A program made the translations under genes and the position numbers. From Paeniglutamicibacter psychrophenolicus (GTDB taxonomy: Bacteria > Actinomycetota > Actinomycetes > Actinomycetales > Micrococcaceae): a stretch of DNA of 64,000 nucleotides. Under the pieces are notes generated by a model, which saw only the letters and a program-made list of their open reading frames with translations, was not told where the DNA came from and did not search any database. The stretch covers positions 1,550,001 through 1,614,000 of the forward strand of contig NZ_JAGIOE010000001.1 in NCBI RefSeq assembly GCF_017876575.1, read 5' to 3'. Positions 31,507 to 51,444 of this stretch are shown in pieces. Position 1 is the first letter of the stretch; each line of letters begins with the position of its first letter.

Positions 31507-32001
31507 ATGGACAGCGACACCACACCCAGGTTCTTCACCCCGGCCATCAGCCGCCCGGCATTGCTTGCCGCGGCCGGAAGGATCCTGGCACCTGCCTTGT
31601 GGCTGGGATTGCTGATCGGGATTTCCTTCATCGAGACGCCGCTGAAGTTCCTGGCCCCGGGCATGACCCTGGCCCTGGGGCTCGGGATCGGGCAGCTGGT
31701 GTTCGCCGCCATGAACATCGTGGAGGTCGTGTTCTTCATCGTGCTCGCTGCCTCCTGCATCAAGCGCGGCCTGGACAGGGCATTCCTGTGGGTCGTCGCG
31801 TCGACAGGACTGGTGCTGCTGGCCAAGGTAGCATTGATCCGCCCGTTCCTGGCCAAGCGCACCGAGGCGGTGCTGGCCGGTGTCGAGGCCGGCGGATCGA
31901 GCTGGCACTACTTCTACATCGCCGCCGATGGGCTGCTGACCGTCTTGCTGGTCACGCTGCTGGTGATGGGCGTGCGCCGCTGGGTCCTCCCGGGACGTTG
32001 A
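31507..32001 (+). CDS. Four-helix membrane protein, DUF4149/TMEM205-like
   Basis: 164 residues with hydrophobic segments at about 27-45, 52-78, 92-112 and 132-154. The segment ALWLGLLIGISFIETPLKFL, with FAAMNIVEVV following, resembles DUF4149-type proteins but the match is loose. The start at 31507 has AGGG about 7 bp upstream. A large inverted repeat begins 25 bp after the stop. The function is unknown. Confidence 0.65.
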   Translation: MDSDTTPRFFTPAISRPALLAAAGRILAPALWLGLLIGISFIETPLKFLAPGMTLALGLGIGQLVFAAMNIVEVVFFIVLAASCIKRGLDRAFLWVVASTGLVLLAKVALIRPFLAKRTEAVLAGVEAGGSSWHYFYIAADGLLTVLLVTLLVMGVRRWVLPGR

Positions 32002-32026
32002 GCCGGGCGGGCACCGGGGCACAAGA

Positions 32027-32090
32027 AGGCCGCGCCGTGCAGAAGCCGGTGAACACGCAGGTGTTCGGGGGCCTTCGCACGACGCGGCCT
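32027..32090 (+). terminator. Long interrupted inverted repeat after the DUF4149-like gene
   Basis: Arms AGGCCGCG.CGTGC and GCACG.CGCGGCCT enclose an inner GAACAC/GTGTTC pair. The structure is followed by GTTTGGTT. It is best read as a terminator for the + gene. It also marks where the transposase remnant on the other strand becomes unreadable. Confidence 0.5.
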
Positions 32091-32094
32091 GTTT

Positions 32095-33270
32095 GGTTGC
32101 GGCGCAGGTCGGGATATTGGAGCCAATCCAACGGGAAAAGCGTTCGTTCCAACCTGCCCAGCTCCCGCAGCGCGTGGCGAGGCCGTTTTGGCGTGGGTAG
32201 GCGCCGAGCTTGCGCATCATCAAGGATGCGGTCACGGGGCCTGTCTTATGGATGTGGCCAGCCGGAGGATTTCATCCCAGTGCGCGGTGATGGTCTTGGT
32301 GTTGATGGTTCCTCCGATCAGCGGCGCCAGAGTGGCAGGTCCTGGCGCATTGGTAGGTGTGTAGAAGCGGGTGTCGCCGATGTTGCGGATCCGGGGTGCG
32401 AACCGGTATCCGAGCAGATCCATGAGGGCGAAGAGATGGTCGGTGAACCCTGCGGTGTCGGTGCAATGCTCCTGGATCGCCAGGTCGGGCTCGTGATACA
32501 GCAGCCCGTCCAAGACGTAGGTCGCGTCGCGGTCCCCGACGTTGATGAGTTTGCTGTGGAAGGGCGAATATTTATCCGAGACGTGGGTGTAGATCATTCG
32601 TCCGGGTTCGGCCCCGTACTTCGGGTTCACATGCCCGGTGGAATCGGCATGGCTTCCGGCACGGAAGCGCTGCCCGTCCGAGGAAGATGTGGCGCCGTCC
32701 CCCAGTGCGCGCCGAATGGGTGTGCGTGCTGGGTATTGACCAGCTCGACCAGGGCGGCACTATATGTTTCATCCCGGATGTGGGAAGCCTGCTGGCGGTC
32801 CAGTGGGGCGTAGATGACGCCGGTGCATGACTCGGACATCTTCGTCAATCCCAGGTTGATTCCATCGGCCAGGATTGCGGTGAGCAGAAGCTGATTGTCC
32901 TTGGAGGGTTGGCCGGACTTGAGGTTGGTGAAGTGGAGGGTGAAGCCCGTCCAGCCGTCTGTTTTCTTCAACAGGTCGGTGATTCGTATCCGCGGGAACA
33001 TGGCGCAGGCCCGGTCGATCAAGGGCTACGCGTGTTGCGGCACGATCGTCTCGAGCGGGGTGATCTTCACGCCGCTGGCAGTGATCAGCACCCCGGGCGG
33101 TTCATCACGGGAGACAAGAGAGTTGACTTGGTGCAGACGTTCGCCGTCGATGATCTCCAGGCGTACTACGAAAGTCTCACAGTTCTCGGTCCCACGCTGA
33201 GGCAGTCGCCAACTGGCATGGGTCCGGAGATCGCCGTCGTACTCGATGGCATTTGCAGCAACCTGATCTA
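32095..33270 (-). pseudogene. Tn3-family transposase remnant, multiply frameshifted
   Basis: On the minus strand, Tn3-transposase blocks occur in order but in different frames. They are EYDGDLRTHASWRLPQRGTE, then a TAG stop at 33026-33028, then [19 protein letters not shown] with [19 protein letters not shown] frame change in the CCCCC at 32699-32703 precedes [17 protein letters not shown] and [15 protein letters not shown], with [12 protein letters not shown] and [18 protein letters not shown]. Another frame change near 32237 precedes TASLMMRKLGAYPRQNGLA, and one more near 32160 precedes ERTLFPLDWLQ. The N-terminal half of a full Tn3 transposase (about 1000 residues) is absent, and no terminal inverted repeats or resolvase are seen. 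Confidence 0.85.
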
Positions 33271-33320
33271 GGTCGTCTTCATAGTCCGTTGAGCACGACG
33301 GCGGTGCGCCAGGGAGTGGT

Positions 33321-34163
33321 TTAGCTCCAGGTCTTGGCGCGCAACCCGTGGGCTCCCAGGTAGCGCGGGGAAGTGGGTTCGGTCCACCCGTTGGTCAAGT
33401 CCTCGTCGAGGGCGTAGACGGACACGTTCAGTGGGTGGCAGTTCTCCACGGGGTCCTCATTGCCGGAGCCAAACATGGGCTGGGACAGATCGCCACCGGG
33501 GCAGGTCGAGAGGGCTACGAGCAGGTCCTGCTCGGCGAAGAACTCGAAGTGGTCCCCCGGCTGGGCGGGACATGTCTTCATGAAGTACTCGTCCCGGTCG
33601 TTGAGGCCGGTGCACTGGAAGACGTTGAGCACGTCGTGCACGTCGAACTCGGTCAGTCCGAACGGGAGAACCGCGCGCACGAGGTTGGAGTGGCAGTGGT
33701 AGTCGAAGCTCACGTCGTTGAGCATCTGCGACACGTAGGGGTCGCAGCGTGTGCCCAGCGTGTCGTGCAACCGCCCGCCCTCAGCGTCGGTCCCGTAGTC
33801 GGCGAGGGTGTCGCCCACGATGGTTGCCATGGGCCGCAGGAATGGCAGGGTCGACCAGAGGCGGTCATAGGTGCTCAGGTGTGCGGCCTGAAGCTGGCGG
33901 GTGCGGGCCGCCCAGAAGCGTTCGCGAGGATCATGGAGGTTCCACATGTTCAGGTCGCCGACCTGTGGGCCATCAACGGTGGAAATCCGGCACACGTGGC
34001 CGGCAGGCACTTCCCACGCCTGCCCAGAGCGGATCTGGACCGTGAATTCCTGCACCAGGGTGCGCTTTTCGGTCTGCTCACCGATGCGTTTGTAGAAGTC
34101 CTGGTCGACTTTCAGGGCGGTGCCTTGGTAGGCGGCTTCGGTCAAGCGTGGATCGGCGGTCAT
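33321..34163 (-). CDS. DUF1989 / urea carboxylase-associated family protein
   Basis: 280 residues of the DUF1989 family: WEVPAGHVCRISTVDGPQVGD, LHDPRERFWAARTR, DTLGTRCDPY, YHCHSNLVRAV and FECF-like FNVFQCTGLN blocks. Conserved Cys/His residues suggest a metal site. Members sit beside urea carboxylase or other nitrogen-compound genes, and some act on carboxyguanidine-type intermediates; this one has no urea carboxylase beside it. AAGGAG precedes the ATG. It lies 44 bp after the GntR-type regulator on the same strand and is probably co-transcribed under the operator at 34888. Confidence 0.8.
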   Translation of the reverse strand: MTADPRLTEAAYQGTALKVDQDFYKRIGEQTEKRTLVQEFTVQIRSGQAWEVPAGHVCRISTVDGPQVGDLNMWNLHDPRERFWAARTRQLQAAHLSTYDRLWSTLPFLRPMATIVGDTLADYGTDAEGGRLHDTLGTRCDPYVSQMLNDVSFDYHCHSNLVRAVLPFGLTEFDVHDVLNVFQCTGLNDRDEYFMKTCPAQPGDHFEFFAEQDLLVALSTCPGGDLSQPMFGSGNEDPVENCHPLNVSVYALDEDLTNGWTEPTSPRYLGAHGLRAKTWS

Positions 34164-34207
34164 GTGGGCTCCTTATACTGGGGTGAACGTTGGGATGCGG
34201 GCGGGAT

Positions 34208-34873
34208 CTAGGGGTGGTTGCGCTGGGCTGCGCGCACTGCATCGACGACGGCCGCCTCGGAATCGGCCAGGTAGCCCAGCAGTTCGATCTCGGCGGACTC
34301 CCGCCGGCCGGCCAACAACAGATCGGCAATGGATCGATCGCGGTCAACCCACTGCGCTTGGAACGCCGCTTCATCGGGCATGACGGCGAAGGCCAGTCGG
34401 AGCTGGGCGGCCATGCCGGCGAAGAATCGGTCCAGTCGGGCAGACCCGGCCAGGGCGACGAGCGCCGAGTGGAAGGCCAAGCTGGCCGTTCCAGCATCGC
34501 GCCACTGCTGCAGGCGCCGATCCTCAATGCTGGCCTGGGCTGCTTCGTCCAATCGCCGCAGCGTGGCGTCGCTTGCTTGACTGCTGGCCCGAACCCCACC
34601 GACCTCAAGGATCCGCCGGGCAGCGTAGATGTCCGAAACATCCGCGGGTGTCAGCACCCGCACCGAGGCGCCGGCATTGACCGTTGAGGCGACCAGCCCG
34701 TCGTTGACGAGCAGGCGCAGTGCCTCCCGGACGCTGTTGCGGGAAACGCCGTGCTCGGGGGCTAGGGCCCGGTCCATTAGGCGTGTGCCCGGGGGCAGTT
34801 CGCCACGCAGTATCTGCAGGCGCAACTTCTCACGAACCCTGCCGGAAGCGCTGGTGTCGTCGTCCTCTATCAT
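34208..34873 (-). CDS. GntR-family regulator, FadR/FCD type
   Basis: 221 residues. The N-terminal winged helix (VREKLRLQILRGELPPGTRL, then HGVSRNSVREALRLL) is followed by a helical FCD effector domain; DIYAARRILEVGGVR marks its start. The start at 34873 is supported by the family N-terminus; no ribosome site precedes it. The perfect operator at 34888-34900 begins 14 bp upstream and would cover its own promoter. It is divergent from the NRAMP-like gene and co-directional with the DUF1989 gene, so it most likely represses all three. Confidence 0.87.
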   Translation of the reverse strand: MIEDDDTSASGRVREKLRLQILRGELPPGTRLMDRALAPEHGVSRNSVREALRLLVNDGLVASTVNAGASVRVLTPADVSDIYAARRILEVGGVRASSQASDATLRRLDEAAQASIEDRRLQQWRDAGTASLAFHSALVALAGSARLDRFFAGMAAQLRLAFAVMPDEAAFQAQWVDRDRSIADLLLAGRRESAEIELLGYLADSEAAVVDAVRAAQRNHP

Positions 34874-34887
34874 GTATCGAAGATAAC

Positions 34888-34900
34888 ATGGTTCAACCAT
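34888..34900. promoter_or_regulatory. FCD/GntR operator copy 1
   Basis: ATGGTTCAACCAT is a perfect 6-1-6 palindrome and contains the TGGTnnnACCA core typical of FadR-subfamily sites. It lies 14 bp upstream of the regulator's start codon, consistent with autorepression. Confidence 0.78.
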
Positions 34901-34994
34901 TCCAACGGCATGAAAATGATTCTTGGACCAATTTTCGCTCCAATAGCGTAGATGGGACGACTCATTTCTGAATTTTGTCGAAATGCTCTTGCCA

Positions 34995-35007
34995 GATGGT
35001 TCAACCA
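34995..35007. promoter_or_regulatory. FCD/GntR operator copy 2
   Basis: The identical 13-bp ATGGTTCAACCAT, 107 bp from copy 1 and 53 bp upstream of the NRAMP-like start codon. The identity of two perfect palindromes in one divergent region is unlikely by chance. Confidence 0.78.
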
Positions 35008-35060
35008 TCCATAGTGTGGGGCATCACAAGATTATTGCCGCCATTGTTGAGGAGAACATC

Positions 35061-36356
35061 ATGAAGGAAGCGCAGCCAGGAGCACCGGAGGCCTCCGGGA
35101 CACTCAGGGTCAGGCCCGCCCTGCAGCAGGGCCGTGGCAAGCGGCATTCACGCTTCGGTCCCGGCCTGATCATTGCCGCTTCCTTCATTGGACCTGGGAC
35201 AATCACGACGTCGATCGTCACCGGGGCCTCGTATGGGTTCACACTGGCCTGGGCCGTGGTTTTTTCGATCATCGCGACCATCGTGTTGCAGGAGATGAGC
35301 GGGCGACTGGGAATCGCCACGCGGTTGAGTTTGGGTGAGGCCCTGCGTACGGTGTTTGCCTCGAAGCTGGCGCGCGGGATCATGGTGGTGCTGGTCGTGG
35401 CCGCCATCGGCATCGGTGGGGCCAGCTACGCGGGCGGGGACACCACGGGAACGGCCCTGGCGCTCAACACCGTCACAGGGCTGGACATGCGCATACTGGT
35501 CGTGGTCCTGCTCGTGTTCATCGGGACGCTGCTGTGGACCGGGAGCTATAAGGCCATCGAGGTCGTGCTGACAATCATGGTGGTCATCTTGGGCGGCATC
35601 TTCTTGCTCACTGCCATCGCGGTGCGTCCTCCCGTTGGAGAGATGCTCGCCGGAATGTTGATTCCTACCGTGCCATCAGGGGCCATGCTCACGACCATCG
35701 CCCTGATTGGCACGACAGTGGTTCCCTATAACTTGTTTTTGCAGTCGAGTTTGGTCCAGGAAAAGTGGGGCAGGGAGCTGGATCCACGCGCTTCGATCCG
35801 GGAATCCCGGGTGGATACCGCGGTGTCCATCTCGGTTGGCGGCCTGATCACCCTCGCAGTCATGGCCACAGCCATGGGGGCAATGTACCTGAACGGGTTG
35901 GCAGCCGAGACCGGCGAGGACCTCACGCGCGCGCTGGAACCCCTGCTCGGCGACGCCTCGCCATGGGTCTTTGCCACCGGTCTATTCGCGGCCGGCTTCA
36001 CTTCCGCCGTGGCCGGACCGCTGGGCGCCGCCTACGCGATCAGCGGCACGCTGGGACGCAGCACCGACCTCAGGAGCACGCCGGCACGCGCCGTGTGGAT
36101 CGGCATCCTGATCGTTGGCGGACTGATTGCGGTCACGGGCACTAATCCCGTACAGATGATCATCATCGCACAGGCAGCCAACGGCCTGCTGCTCCCGATC
36201 ATCGCGATCTTCCTAATGGTAGTGATGAACAACAAACAACTGATGGGAGCCTACCGCAACGGCCCGCTGGCCAACGTCTTTGGCTGGATCATTTGCCTCG
36301 TTGTCACTGGTCTGGCGGGCTACCAGCTTGGCGATCTGGGCGGACTGTGGGGGTAG
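35061..36356 (+). CDS. NRAMP-related transporter lacking the metal-binding motifs
   Basis: 431 residues, about 11 hydrophobic helices with NRAMP-fold spacing (GPGLIIAASFIGPGTITTS in helix 1). The metal-site motifs are changed: DPGN reads GPGT (residues about 46-49) and the MPHN of helix 6 reads VPYN (221-224). Transition-metal transport is therefore doubtful. Related proteins such as Bacillus YcsG sit in organic-acid or oxoproline clusters, and here the module contains DUF1989. A nitrogenous organic substrate is the better guess. The start at 35061 has GAGGAGA 7 bp upstream; a longer frame would run through the operator. Confidence 0.82.
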   Translation: MKEAQPGAPEASGTLRVRPALQQGRGKRHSRFGPGLIIAASFIGPGTITTSIVTGASYGFTLAWAVVFSIIATIVLQEMSGRLGIATRLSLGEALRTVFASKLARGIMVVLVVAAIGIGGASYAGGDTTGTALALNTVTGLDMRILVVVLLVFIGTLLWTGSYKAIEVVLTIMVVILGGIFLLTAIAVRPPVGEMLAGMLIPTVPSGAMLTTIALIGTTVVPYNLFLQSSLVQEKWGRELDPRASIRESRVDTAVSISVGGLITLAVMATAMGAMYLNGLAAETGEDLTRALEPLLGDASPWVFATGLFAAGFTSAVAGPLGAAYAISGTLGRSTDLRSTPARAVWIGILIVGGLIAVTGTNPVQMIIIAQAANGLLLPIIAIFLMVVMNNKQLMGAYRNGPLANVFGWIICLVVTGLAGYQLGDLGGLWG

Positions 36357-36694
36357 ACCGCAGTTTTCCACCAGTTCGATCGGGGCTCGAGGGTTCCCGA
36401 TTCCCCTTCGATCAAGGATCATGAGGGCATACTTGGATCCTGTCGATCGTGGCGAAGCGTCAAATAGAGCATCACGGGTAGGGGCGCGCCGTTTGGGTGC
36501 ACCCCTACTTTGTGGTGGTGCCGCGGTCTCCACCGTGAACTCCAACCCCGAAGGCTGGGGTAAACGAGCAATGCTGCTCCTTTGCTACCCAAATACCGGC
36601 TACAAACCGGGCCGAATACTGTTCAACGGCTGCACACTTCGGGCGAAAAATCGCACAGACGTCGGATATTCGACTTTTTCACAAGCCACCCCTG
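36357..36694. other. 338-bp gap with no recognised element
   Basis: No credible reading frame or RNA motif was found between the NRAMP-like gene and the convergent LLM oxidoreductase gene. Small inverted repeats such as CCGG.TACAAA.CCGG near 36596 are unremarkable. It may contain decayed sequence. Confidence 0.4.
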
Positions 36695-37690
<996 letters not shown>

Positions 37691-37777
37691 ATAGGCGGCA
37701 ACCAGCGCCCGCCCGCATTCATTCCCCGGCATCGGGCACGCCACACCGCGACCGGGTCCGGGCGTAGGCTTTGGGGC

Positions 37778-38440
37778 ATGAGGCGGATTCCGTTGATGAT
37801 GGCGCCCGGACTGCTGGCCTGTTTCCTGGGCGCCTGCACCACCCTTGTGCCCGATCCGCCCGAACCTGCGCCCTCCACCCAGGCGAACGCCCAGCCACTT
37901 CCGCTACCCGGCGATTGCCCGCAGGCCGGCGCGGTCGAACCGGTGAAGGGCATCGCGGCGGGGACCGATGCCCAGATTGCCGCGGACCTGTTGGCTGCGG
38001 TGGGGCGGTGGACCAACGCCGGAACGGCAATGGTCACCAATGAACCGGCCTGGATCGGCCCCGGGGTGCGCGGGCATTGCCTGGCGGACCTGGCCGAGGC
38101 ACTCGGGCGGATCTACGGACCGGTGCTGTTTGCCGGGAACGCGGACGAGACGCTGGCGAGTTTTCGGTCCGAGGTTGTGCAGGAGAACCTGGCGAACCTG
38201 AAAACCGCGCAGGAGCAGGGCCGGGCCACCGATGCCAAGCGGGAACTGGTGCTGATCCAGCAGTCGTCGCAATCGGAGTCCGGGACATTCTTGAATCTCG
38301 TCGTGCGCCGGTTCGAGAGCGGGTCGATCCAGCCGGCAGGCATGGAGACATGGTTCGTCATCGTGGGGCCGCCGGAATCGCAAAACCTAGTGTTCCACCT
38401 GGAGAGAAAGGCGAGCCCGCACGGATCGTTCAGTTGGTGA
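37778..38440 (+). CDS. Putative lipoprotein of unknown function
   Basis: 220 residues. A short signal peptide ends in the lipobox LGAC with the modified cysteine near residue 20, then a proline-rich linker ([11 protein letters not shown]) and a globular domain of about 170 residues with no recognised family. GGGG precedes the ATG. It would be anchored on the outer face of the membrane. A bidirectional hairpin closes the gene at 38462-38492. Confidence 0.68.
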
Positions 38441-50136: not shown

Positions 50137-51444
50137 CTAGCCCTCCCAGAGCGGCGAGGCTGCCTTGTACAGCTGTTGGACGCCCAGGGAAATGAACAGG
50201 GCGGCGGTGATGGCCAGCAGGACGTTGGTGTGGACCTTGTTGGCCCAGACCTTGGGGATCCGCTTGCCGTTGAGCAGGCCCAGCAGGGTCACGGCGAGGA
50301 ACGGCATGAACAGCGAACCGAGCACGCCGTAGGCCAGGATCAGGGCGATCGGCTTGTCCAGCAGGAACAGCACCATCGGCGGGAAGGTCAGCCACAGCAC
50401 GTAGAACTTGAAGTACTTGCCGCCCACGCGGGTGTCCGGGTGCCCGGATTCCTTGCCGCGGATGTTGCCCCAGAAGTCGGCGAACATCAGCGAGACGCCG
50501 TTCCACACCCCGATGATCGAGGAGAAGGAAGCGGCCCAGAATCCGATGAGGAACCCGGTGCCGACCACGTCGCCGTACTTCTCGTTCAGCACGGTGGTCA
50601 GGTCCAGCAGCCCGGCATCGCCGGCGCTCAGCGAGACGCCCGCGGCGCGCACTACCTCGGCGCCGACGATCAGCATGGCGATCACGAAGATGCCGGTGAT
50701 CACGTAGGCCATGGAGTTGTCGATCCGCATGACCTTCATCCACTTGGGCGTGTACCAGCCCTTTTCCCGCAGCCAGTAGCCGTAGGCGGCCAGGGTGATG
50801 GTGCCGCCGACGCCTCCGGCCAGCGCCAGGGTGTAGACCACGCCGCCCTTGGGGATCATCGGGATCAGGCCGGAGAACATCTCGGGGATGTTCGGCGCGG
50901 CAATGATCGCCAGACCGACGACGGTGACGAACATGATGCCTACCAGCACCGCGGTGATCTTCTCGAAGAAGGAGTAGCGGCCGAACCAGACCATGGCGAA
51001 GCCGGCCAGGCCCATCAGGACCGCCCAGATCTTCAGGTCCACGCCCGGGAACAGGGCGGCCAGCGGCATTGCCGCCGAGGACATCGCGGTGGCTCCGTAG
51101 ACGAAGCCCCAGATGATGATGTACGGGCCGAAGTACCAGGTGGTCCACTTGCCCAGGGACTTCCAGCCCTCGAAGATGGTCTTGCCGGTGGCCAGGGTGA
51201 AGCGCCCGGCGCCCTCGACCAGGATGATCTTCAGGATGACGCCGAGGATCACCGCCCAGAGCAGCGCATAGCCGTAGCGCGAGCCGGCCACCAGAGTGGC
51301 GACCATGTCTGCGGCGCCGACGCCGGTGGCCGCGACGACCAGGCCGGGGCCGACGATCTTCCATTTGGCCGGCTTGCCGCCGTCGTCGTCGATGCGGTCG
51401 GCGTGCAACGCCTTGACCGCTGGTGCATTCTCTTCTGTTGGCAT
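50137..51444 (-). CDS. NRAMP-related transporter, second copy type
   Basis: 435 residues with NRAMP-like helix spacing (GPGLVVAATGVGAADMVATL in helix 1, residues about 32-51). The DPGN metal motif is replaced by a GAAD-like stretch, and helix 6 reads LAAYGYW where MPHN is expected, so canonical Mn/Fe transport is doubtful. It differs strongly from the protein at 35061 and represents another branch of the superfamily. The start at 51444 is preferred to in-frame codons further out, which encode an unrelated basic stretch. It stands alone with no regulator next to it. Confidence 0.78.
   Translation of the reverse strand: MPTEENAPAVKALHADRIDDDGGKPAKWKIVGPGLVVAATGVGAADMVATLVAGSRYGYALLWAVILGVILKIILVEGAGRFTLATGKTIFEGWKSLGKWTTWYFGPYIIIWGFVYGATAMSSAAMPLAALFPGVDLKIWAVLMGLAGFAMVWFGRYSFFEKITAVLVGIMFVTVVGLAIIAAPNIPEMFSGLIPMIPKGGVVYTLALAGGVGGTITLAAYGYWLREKGWYTPKWMKVMRIDNSMAYVITGIFVIAMLIVGAEVVRAAGVSLSAGDAGLLDLTTVLNEKYGDVVGTGFLIGFWAASFSSIIGVWNGVSLMFADFWGNIRGKESGHPDTRVGGKYFKFYVLWLTFPPMVLFLLDKPIALILAYGVLGSLFMPFLAVTLLGLLNGKRIPKVWANKVHTNVLLAITAALFISLGVQQLYKAASPLWEG

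Follow-up and report, generated by a model that had tools for sequence, protein, structure and literature searches.

Which pathway is served by a regulator, an enzyme and a carrier that share two identical operators? The question is raised by positions 33321–36356 of a 64,000-nucleotide stretch of the Paeniglutamicibacter psychrophenolicus genome (contig NZ_JAGIOE010000001.1, positions 1,550,001 to 1,614,000), hereafter the window. At this place, an FCD-subfamily GntR regulator and a DUF1989 protein are encoded divergently from an NRAMP-fold carrier. It is very nearly certain that this module is a real small regulon. Comparative genomics suggests, with a probability of roughly 0.7, that the module feeds or belongs to 5-oxoproline metabolism, and it can be compared with the PxpR system, the 5-oxoproline repressor system of Corynebacterium glutamicum that was described in May 2026 (PMC13274462).

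Genes and operators of the module

The divergent region (34874–35060, 187 bp) parts the leftward FCD–GntR and DUF1989 genes from the rightward carrier gene. The regulator (34208–34873, minus strand) comprises 221 amino acids from the start MIEDDD and contains both the GntR and the FCD domain (PF00392 and PF07729, above cut-off), as in the FadR/FCD subfamily of GntR. The DUF1989 gene (33321–34163, minus strand; 280 amino acids) lies on the same strand at a distance of 44 bp, and the two genes probably form one transcript. The carrier (35061–36356, plus strand; 431 amino acids) scores 288.2 bits against PF01566, for which the cut-off is 29.8, and its gene is divergent from the regulator gene, as in the PxpR regulon. 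The metal motifs of NRAMP proteins are DPGN in transmembrane helix 1 (TM1) and MPH in TM6. When aligned to the solved NRAMP transporter 10KY, the carrier displays GPGT for DPGN and VPY for MPH. A second NRAMP-family gene in the window (50239–51297, minus strand; 130.6 bits) is approximately 24% identical to the module carrier and is one of five such genes in the genome.

The operator ATGGTTCAACCAT is a perfect 13-bp palindrome that occurs in two identical copies in the divergent region, neither assigned to a strand. Operator 1 (34888–34900) lies 14 bases upstream of the regulator start, and operator 2 (34996–35008) lies 52 bases upstream of the carrier start. The sequence-only reading had described an FCD repressor, a DUF1989 protein and an NRAMP-like carrier with two identical perfect operators, one at the regulator and one 53 bp before the transporter start; the coordinates and a genome-wide search confirm this picture, the spacing being 52 bases. 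In the window, only these two places match ATGGTTCAACCAT with up to two mismatches, each on both strands (chance expectation 0.73). In the whole genome of 4,907,766 bases, exact ATGGTTSAACCAT is found at the two module places only, and three further places match it with one mismatch. Of 20,000 sequences made by mononucleotide shuffling of this 187-bp region, 943 contained at least one palindrome and none contained two identical perfect 13-bp palindromes. The operator form of the FadR/FCD subfamily is TNGTNNNACNA, which is fitted by the window operator core TGGTTCAACCA. The longest mechanical open reading frame (ORF) of the regulator (to 35008) begins inside operator 2, where the minus strand reads ATG-GTT-GAA-CCA, and the longest carrier ORF (from 34983) likewise passes through this operator. 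The minus strand of each operator is ATGGTTGAACCAT, in which gene callers can read a start codon (M-V-E-P) that lengthens the regulator, as in the ORF list at 35008.

In C. glutamicum, PxpR is reported to bind 5-oxoproline with a dissociation constant (KD) of 726 nM and to repress pxpTABC via AGATTGTTCAACAATCT, the mutation or deletion of which increased reporter output 6.5-fold (PMC13274462). The window operator ATGGTTCAACCAT and the PxpR operator AGATTGTTCAACAATCT are not identical; they are one symmetric base apart.

Operators and gene partners in other genomes

Neighbourhoods of DUF1989 genes were compared in 81 loci (numbered with the prefix L), that is, the window and 80 named loci that were the best of 584 relatives, with a total length of 1.285 Mb. 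Some of these contigs end early, and partner counts are limited to the fetched flank. Near-matches to ATTGTTSAACAAT with at most one mismatch occur 28 times, and all 28 lie at −100 to 350 bp from a called DUF1989, FCD, ATP-binding cassette (ABC) transporter or NRAMP start. These sites span Actinomycetota and Proteobacteria (Alcaligenaceae, Trinickia, Caballeronia, Halotalea, Pokkaliibacter). The regulon would have been called into question if genomes elsewhere carried the three genes but lacked the operator, and this is not what was seen. Exact ATGGTTSAACCAT accompanies the set not only in the window but also twice in P. psychrophenolicus L065 and once in Brevibacterium casei L069, and variants stand beside FCD and DUF1989 genes in other genera. 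Two one-mismatch copies of ATGGTTSAACCAT, in L101 and L113, have no DUF1989, FCD, ABC or NRAMP gene near them. Upstream of the FCD gene, the half-core GTT ranked first of 64 and was found in 13 of 22 loci, with the runner-up in 6. In L207 (genome G739), an exact ATTGTT core stands just before DUF1989–FCD, and a second exact core stands at the upstream end of a gene run encoding a solute-binding protein, a permease/ATPase, an amidase and the ectoine synthase EctC. Two divergons lie side by side in Gulosibacter sediminis L088. In one of them, an FCD gene of the pxp-associated clade faces NRAMP–pxp genes with the site ATTGTTCAACAAC; in the other, FCD–DUF1989 faces ABC genes with ACTGTTSAACAGT twice.

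At least one of five partner types (FCD, PxpA, solute-binding protein, NRAMP, EctC) accompanies DUF1989 in 43 of the 81 loci by our own count. An FCD regulator is near DUF1989 in 23 loci (weak in L100), PxpA in 22, PxpB/C in 17, a solute-binding protein of one ABC type in 15, NRAMP in 7 (weak in L090), biotin carboxylase in 6 and EctC in 6. The pxpA gene starts −3 to 84 bp downstream of DUF1989 on the same strand in 15 loci, many of which are related freshwater-type actinobacterial genomes and not independent. In Arthrobacter sp. H14 (L041/L114), FCD–DUF1989 is divergent from NRAMP–pxpA–pxpBC–accBC, and the NRAMP protein is 54% identical to that of the window. In three genomes of genus g13 (L046, L048, L053), DUF1989 is part of a single run with pxpA–pxpBC–accBC–FCD.

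The module itself contains no pxpABC. In the same genome, these genes are located at about C1:1490.6–1494.7 kb, in a canonical locus with the order pxpA–pxpBC–accBC–GntR (about C1:1489.8–1494.7 kb), approximately 89 kb from the module, and an exact ATTGTTCAACAAT stands 54 bp before pxpA. At approximately 1475.3–1477.4 kb, an NRAMP carrier and a D-glutamate-cyclase gene follow two one-mismatch copies of ATTGTTCAACAAT. The canonical 5-oxoproline genes of C1:1475–1495 kb (also L058 and L064) stand in two places approximately 12 kb apart with common ATTGTT-type sites. A further site of this type, with one mismatch, is at C1:1933725–1933737 (L148). In a midpoint-rooted tree of 26 FCD proteins, in which support values were not read and C. 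glutamicum PxpR was not included, the GntR protein of the canonical locus groups with the regulators of L046, L048 and L053 and with the first of those in L088. The window regulator groups with other DUF1989 partners, outside the clade of pxp-associated FCD proteins, and its conserved C-terminal pattern differs from that of this clade. The split is not a clean partner rule: in L046, L048 and L053, too, the regulator gene stands in a run with DUF1989. One genome holds two related repressors with operators one base per half-site apart. We would guess, from two genomes, that this operator difference keeps the two regulators apart.

Ectoine synthase is another partner type. Among 197 family genomes, 25 have a DUF1989 match and 22 have an orthologue at 62–100% identity; EctC was found in 15 of the 22 DUF1989-positive genomes and in 42 of the 175 others (Fisher p 5.8e-5, uncorrected for descent). 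A solo EctC gene lies 33–55 bp upstream of DUF1989 in L104 and L118, which are Alcaligenaceae operons with ABC, amidase, DUF1989 and FCD genes. In Streptomyces (L092, L103), ectABCD lies upstream of DUF1989, and in Micrococcaceae (L125, L133), EctC is 1.7 kb from DUF1989. In L281 (4946–6700, minus strand), a solo EctC gene is directly followed by an amidase-like gene, with no DUF1989.

A candidate reaction and its rivals

The characterised relatives of DUF1989 that are described include CgdAB, which are DUF1989 proteins (PMC11271267), and trimethylamine N-oxide (TMAO) demethylase. In the DUF1989 protein of the window, Cys140, Cys157 and Cys221 are invariant in 38 sequences and correspond to the zinc-holding cysteines of the family, and the model of the protein matches the structure 3DI4. 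It can be proposed that the protein is a Zn-Cys3 deiminase and that the module serves 5-oxoproline salvage as a satellite induced by its substrate. A PxpR-related FCD repressor would shut both operators, and with them its own regulator–DUF1989 operon and the divergent carrier. The NRAMP-fold carrier, having lost its metal motifs, would import a compound that binds the FCD domain and releases the repressor. DUF1989, as a zinc enzyme of the carboxyguanidine-deiminase/TMAO-demethylase family, would hydrolyse a C=N bond of this compound to ammonia and 5-oxoproline, which the PxpA–PxpBC–biotin carboxylase set, approximately 89 kb away and behind a PxpR-type operator, would open to glutamate. By analogy with CgdAB, the production of 5-oxoproline by deimination has a little less than an even chance.

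The proposed compound should join two partner types, 5-oxoprolinase and ectoine synthase, and for this reason 5-amino-3,4-dihydro-2H-pyrrole-2-carboxylate (ADPC), the cyclic amidine of glutamine, is put forward as the most likely candidate. EctC is reported to convert glutamine to ADPC reversibly (PMC5924519), so the compound may come from a side reaction of ectoine synthase; chemically, exchange of its exocyclic nitrogen for a water oxygen would give 5-oxoproline. That ADPC itself is the substrate is a tentative suggestion. ADPC has so far been described as a synthetic compatible solute. Equally tentative is the wider idea of a dedicated natural ADPC pathway, with DUF1989 deimination to 5-oxoproline, its own repressor, NRAMP-fold and ABC carriers exchanged between lineages and a 5-oxoprolinase sink, to which some Burkholderiales-type genomes would add an orphan ectoine synthase as a further member of the regulon. 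If the proposal is true, 5-oxoproline metabolism, a small field, would gain an enzyme step, and one clade of the uncharacterised DUF1989 family with a solved structure (3DI4) would gain a testable function. The proposal would also offer one answer to what some orphan EctC proteins do, a role described as unresolved or not yet clear in accounts of these proteins (PMC5924519, PMC6344544).

Several observations weigh against this proposal. The deiminase assignment of DUF1989 draws on CgdAB, a distant relative. Nine of the 22 FCD+DUF1989 loci have no site upstream of the FCD gene; five of the nine (L104, L118, L119, L128, L143) carry sites before an ABC gene, and in the other four (L098, L100, L114, L129) a site with the GTT core was not found. 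By our own count, 38 of the 81 loci have no FCD, PxpA, solute-binding protein, NRAMP or EctC match in the flank. In five of eight orthologue-bearing g13 genomes (L047, L049–L052), DUF1989 adjoins 2-oxoacid dehydrogenase E1-beta/E2 genes, and no 5-oxoprolinase cluster was called beside it. At the genome level, PxpA is not enriched with DUF1989 (18/22 versus 159/175, p 0.25), and no PxpA match was obtained in four DUF1989-positive genomes (G049, G073, G125, G140). EctC was not found in the window genome with a model that found it in 7 of 12 other genomes, so ADPC would need an external source. In general, EctC genes are not linked to DUF1989: for a sample of 369 genomes, 59 EctC matches were listed, 57 of them (all but the two of G491) were covered by 55 fetched regions, and none of these regions, 12 of which have no EctA or EctB match, held DUF1989 above 45 bits. 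Finally, EctC is reported to act on glutamine very weakly, in a reaction whose equilibrium favours glutamine (PMC5924519).

The module might instead be a plain second 5-oxoproline regulon, in which the FCD protein senses 5-oxoproline or its D form, import is by a PxpT-like carrier and DUF1989 plays an accessory part, such as racemisation or the clearing of a damaged form. The single symmetric base between the operators, the window-type carrier that heads the pxpABC run of L041/L114 and the runs of L046, L048 and L053, where DUF1989, pxp genes and a pxp-clade regulator are joined, would fit this explanation, as would the requirement for the NRAMP-family carrier PxpT in the growth of C. glutamicum on 5-oxoproline (PMC13274462). 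However, the window regulator, with its different C-terminal pattern, is outside the pxpABC-associated FCD clade, a canonical pxp set already exists in the genome, and the window carrier is only ~22% identical to the NRAMP type of the pxp loci L046, L048, L053 and L088 and 25% identical to that of L084. The plain form is therefore possible but doubtful. Alternatively, the NRAMP protein might import Mn or Zn for the DUF1989 metalloenzyme. Its family membership would fit such a supply role, as would the claim that YcsG, from a Bacillus subtilis pxp operon, imports Mn (PMC10448178); metal transport by PxpT, moreover, was not excluded in the account of its authors (PMC13274462). The replacement of residues at both metal motifs relative to 10KY argues against this role, and it is a minor, rather improbable rival.

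The two remaining explanations start from the enzyme. DUF1989 might open or trim ectoine or N-acetyl-diaminobutyrate in ectoine/hydroxyectoine turnover, given that it follows ectABCD in L092 and L103 and that ect genes are close to it in L125/L133; in addition, EhuA gives the best score for the ATPase portion of the fused ABC protein (301.2 bits, under the cut-off of 345.4). This explanation leaves the pxpA genes directly downstream in 15 of the 81 loci unaccounted for, 7 of the 22 DUF1989-positive family genomes, the window's among them, lack an EctC match, and it is considered unlikely. The sequence-only reading had linked the enzyme to guanidine/urea-type metabolism. The family does include CgdAB, but the window protein reaches 48.6 bits against UAAP2 (curated cut-off 284.7) and 46.6 bits against UAAP1 (205.95), and it is encoded by a single gene instead of an A/B pair. 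Moreover, 32000–37800 contains no match at the gathering score of any Rfam family, the guanidine riboswitches among them, and the genes that recur beside DUF1989 are pxpA and that of an FCD regulator with PxpR-type sites. Carboxyguanidine deimination is thus the least probable of the explanations, and this link was not upheld. The notion of an undescribed small pathway fared better, as a small two-operator regulon with an undescribed enzyme step is supported. To call it self-contained goes too far, because PxpABC, the likely next enzyme, is encoded outside the module.

Ancestry and comparison with known systems

The nearest named relative, P. psychrophenolicus L065, shares 96% DNA identity across 33148–36710. 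On the left side, both the window and L065 have remnants of a Tn3 transposase, with matching DNA of 85%. In the window, these Tn3-family fragments (32232–33022, minus strand; PF01526 in two ORFs) stand next to the module, outside its function, and mark its mobile past. A DUF1989 orthologue is present in 3 of 12 sampled same-genus genomes, the window genome included, one of them at 69% identity. The next relatives after L065 are from Brevibacterium; in B. casei L069, the whole three-gene set is present and can be aligned at 74% DNA identity. The module is likely to have arrived horizontally.

Among known systems, CgdAB (UAAP1/UAAP2) share the Pfam family with the window DUF1989 and, by family evidence, a three-Cys zinc site, whereas the window protein is a single one, far under the UAAP cut-offs and without an Rfam riboswitch match in 32000–37800. 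TMAO demethylase, which combines DUF1989 and GcvT domains, is reported to have a Zn-Cys3 site in the common DUF1989 domain; the window protein has no GcvT domain, and its score of 30.1 bits lies below the cut-off of 1100. The protein of PDB entry 3DI4, SPO0365 of Ruegeria (Silicibacter) pomeroyi, has the same fold and is 46% identical across the aligned length. In L104, L118 and L207, the genes of solo EctC proteins are clustered with DUF1989 and with sites of the PxpR type; in contrast, the window genome gave no EctC match, and DUF1989 is absent from all 12 sampled regions without EctA/EctB matches.

The closest comparison can be drawn with PxpR/pxpTABC, in which a GntR repressor with a C-terminal ligand domain is likewise divergent from an NRAMP-family carrier (PMC13274462) and a palindromic site precedes the carrier, that of the window differing by one symmetric base. 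Unlike this system, the window has DUF1989 on the regulator's side, no pxpABC in the module, a carrier of another NRAMP type than in the pxp loci compared here and a regulator outside the pxp-associated FCD clade of a tree that did not contain PxpR itself. It also has two operators, one of them at the regulator, whereas autoregulation of PxpR is judged unlikely in its authors' account (PMC13274462). The module is related to the PxpR system, and what sets it apart is its new enzyme and the shift in its operator.

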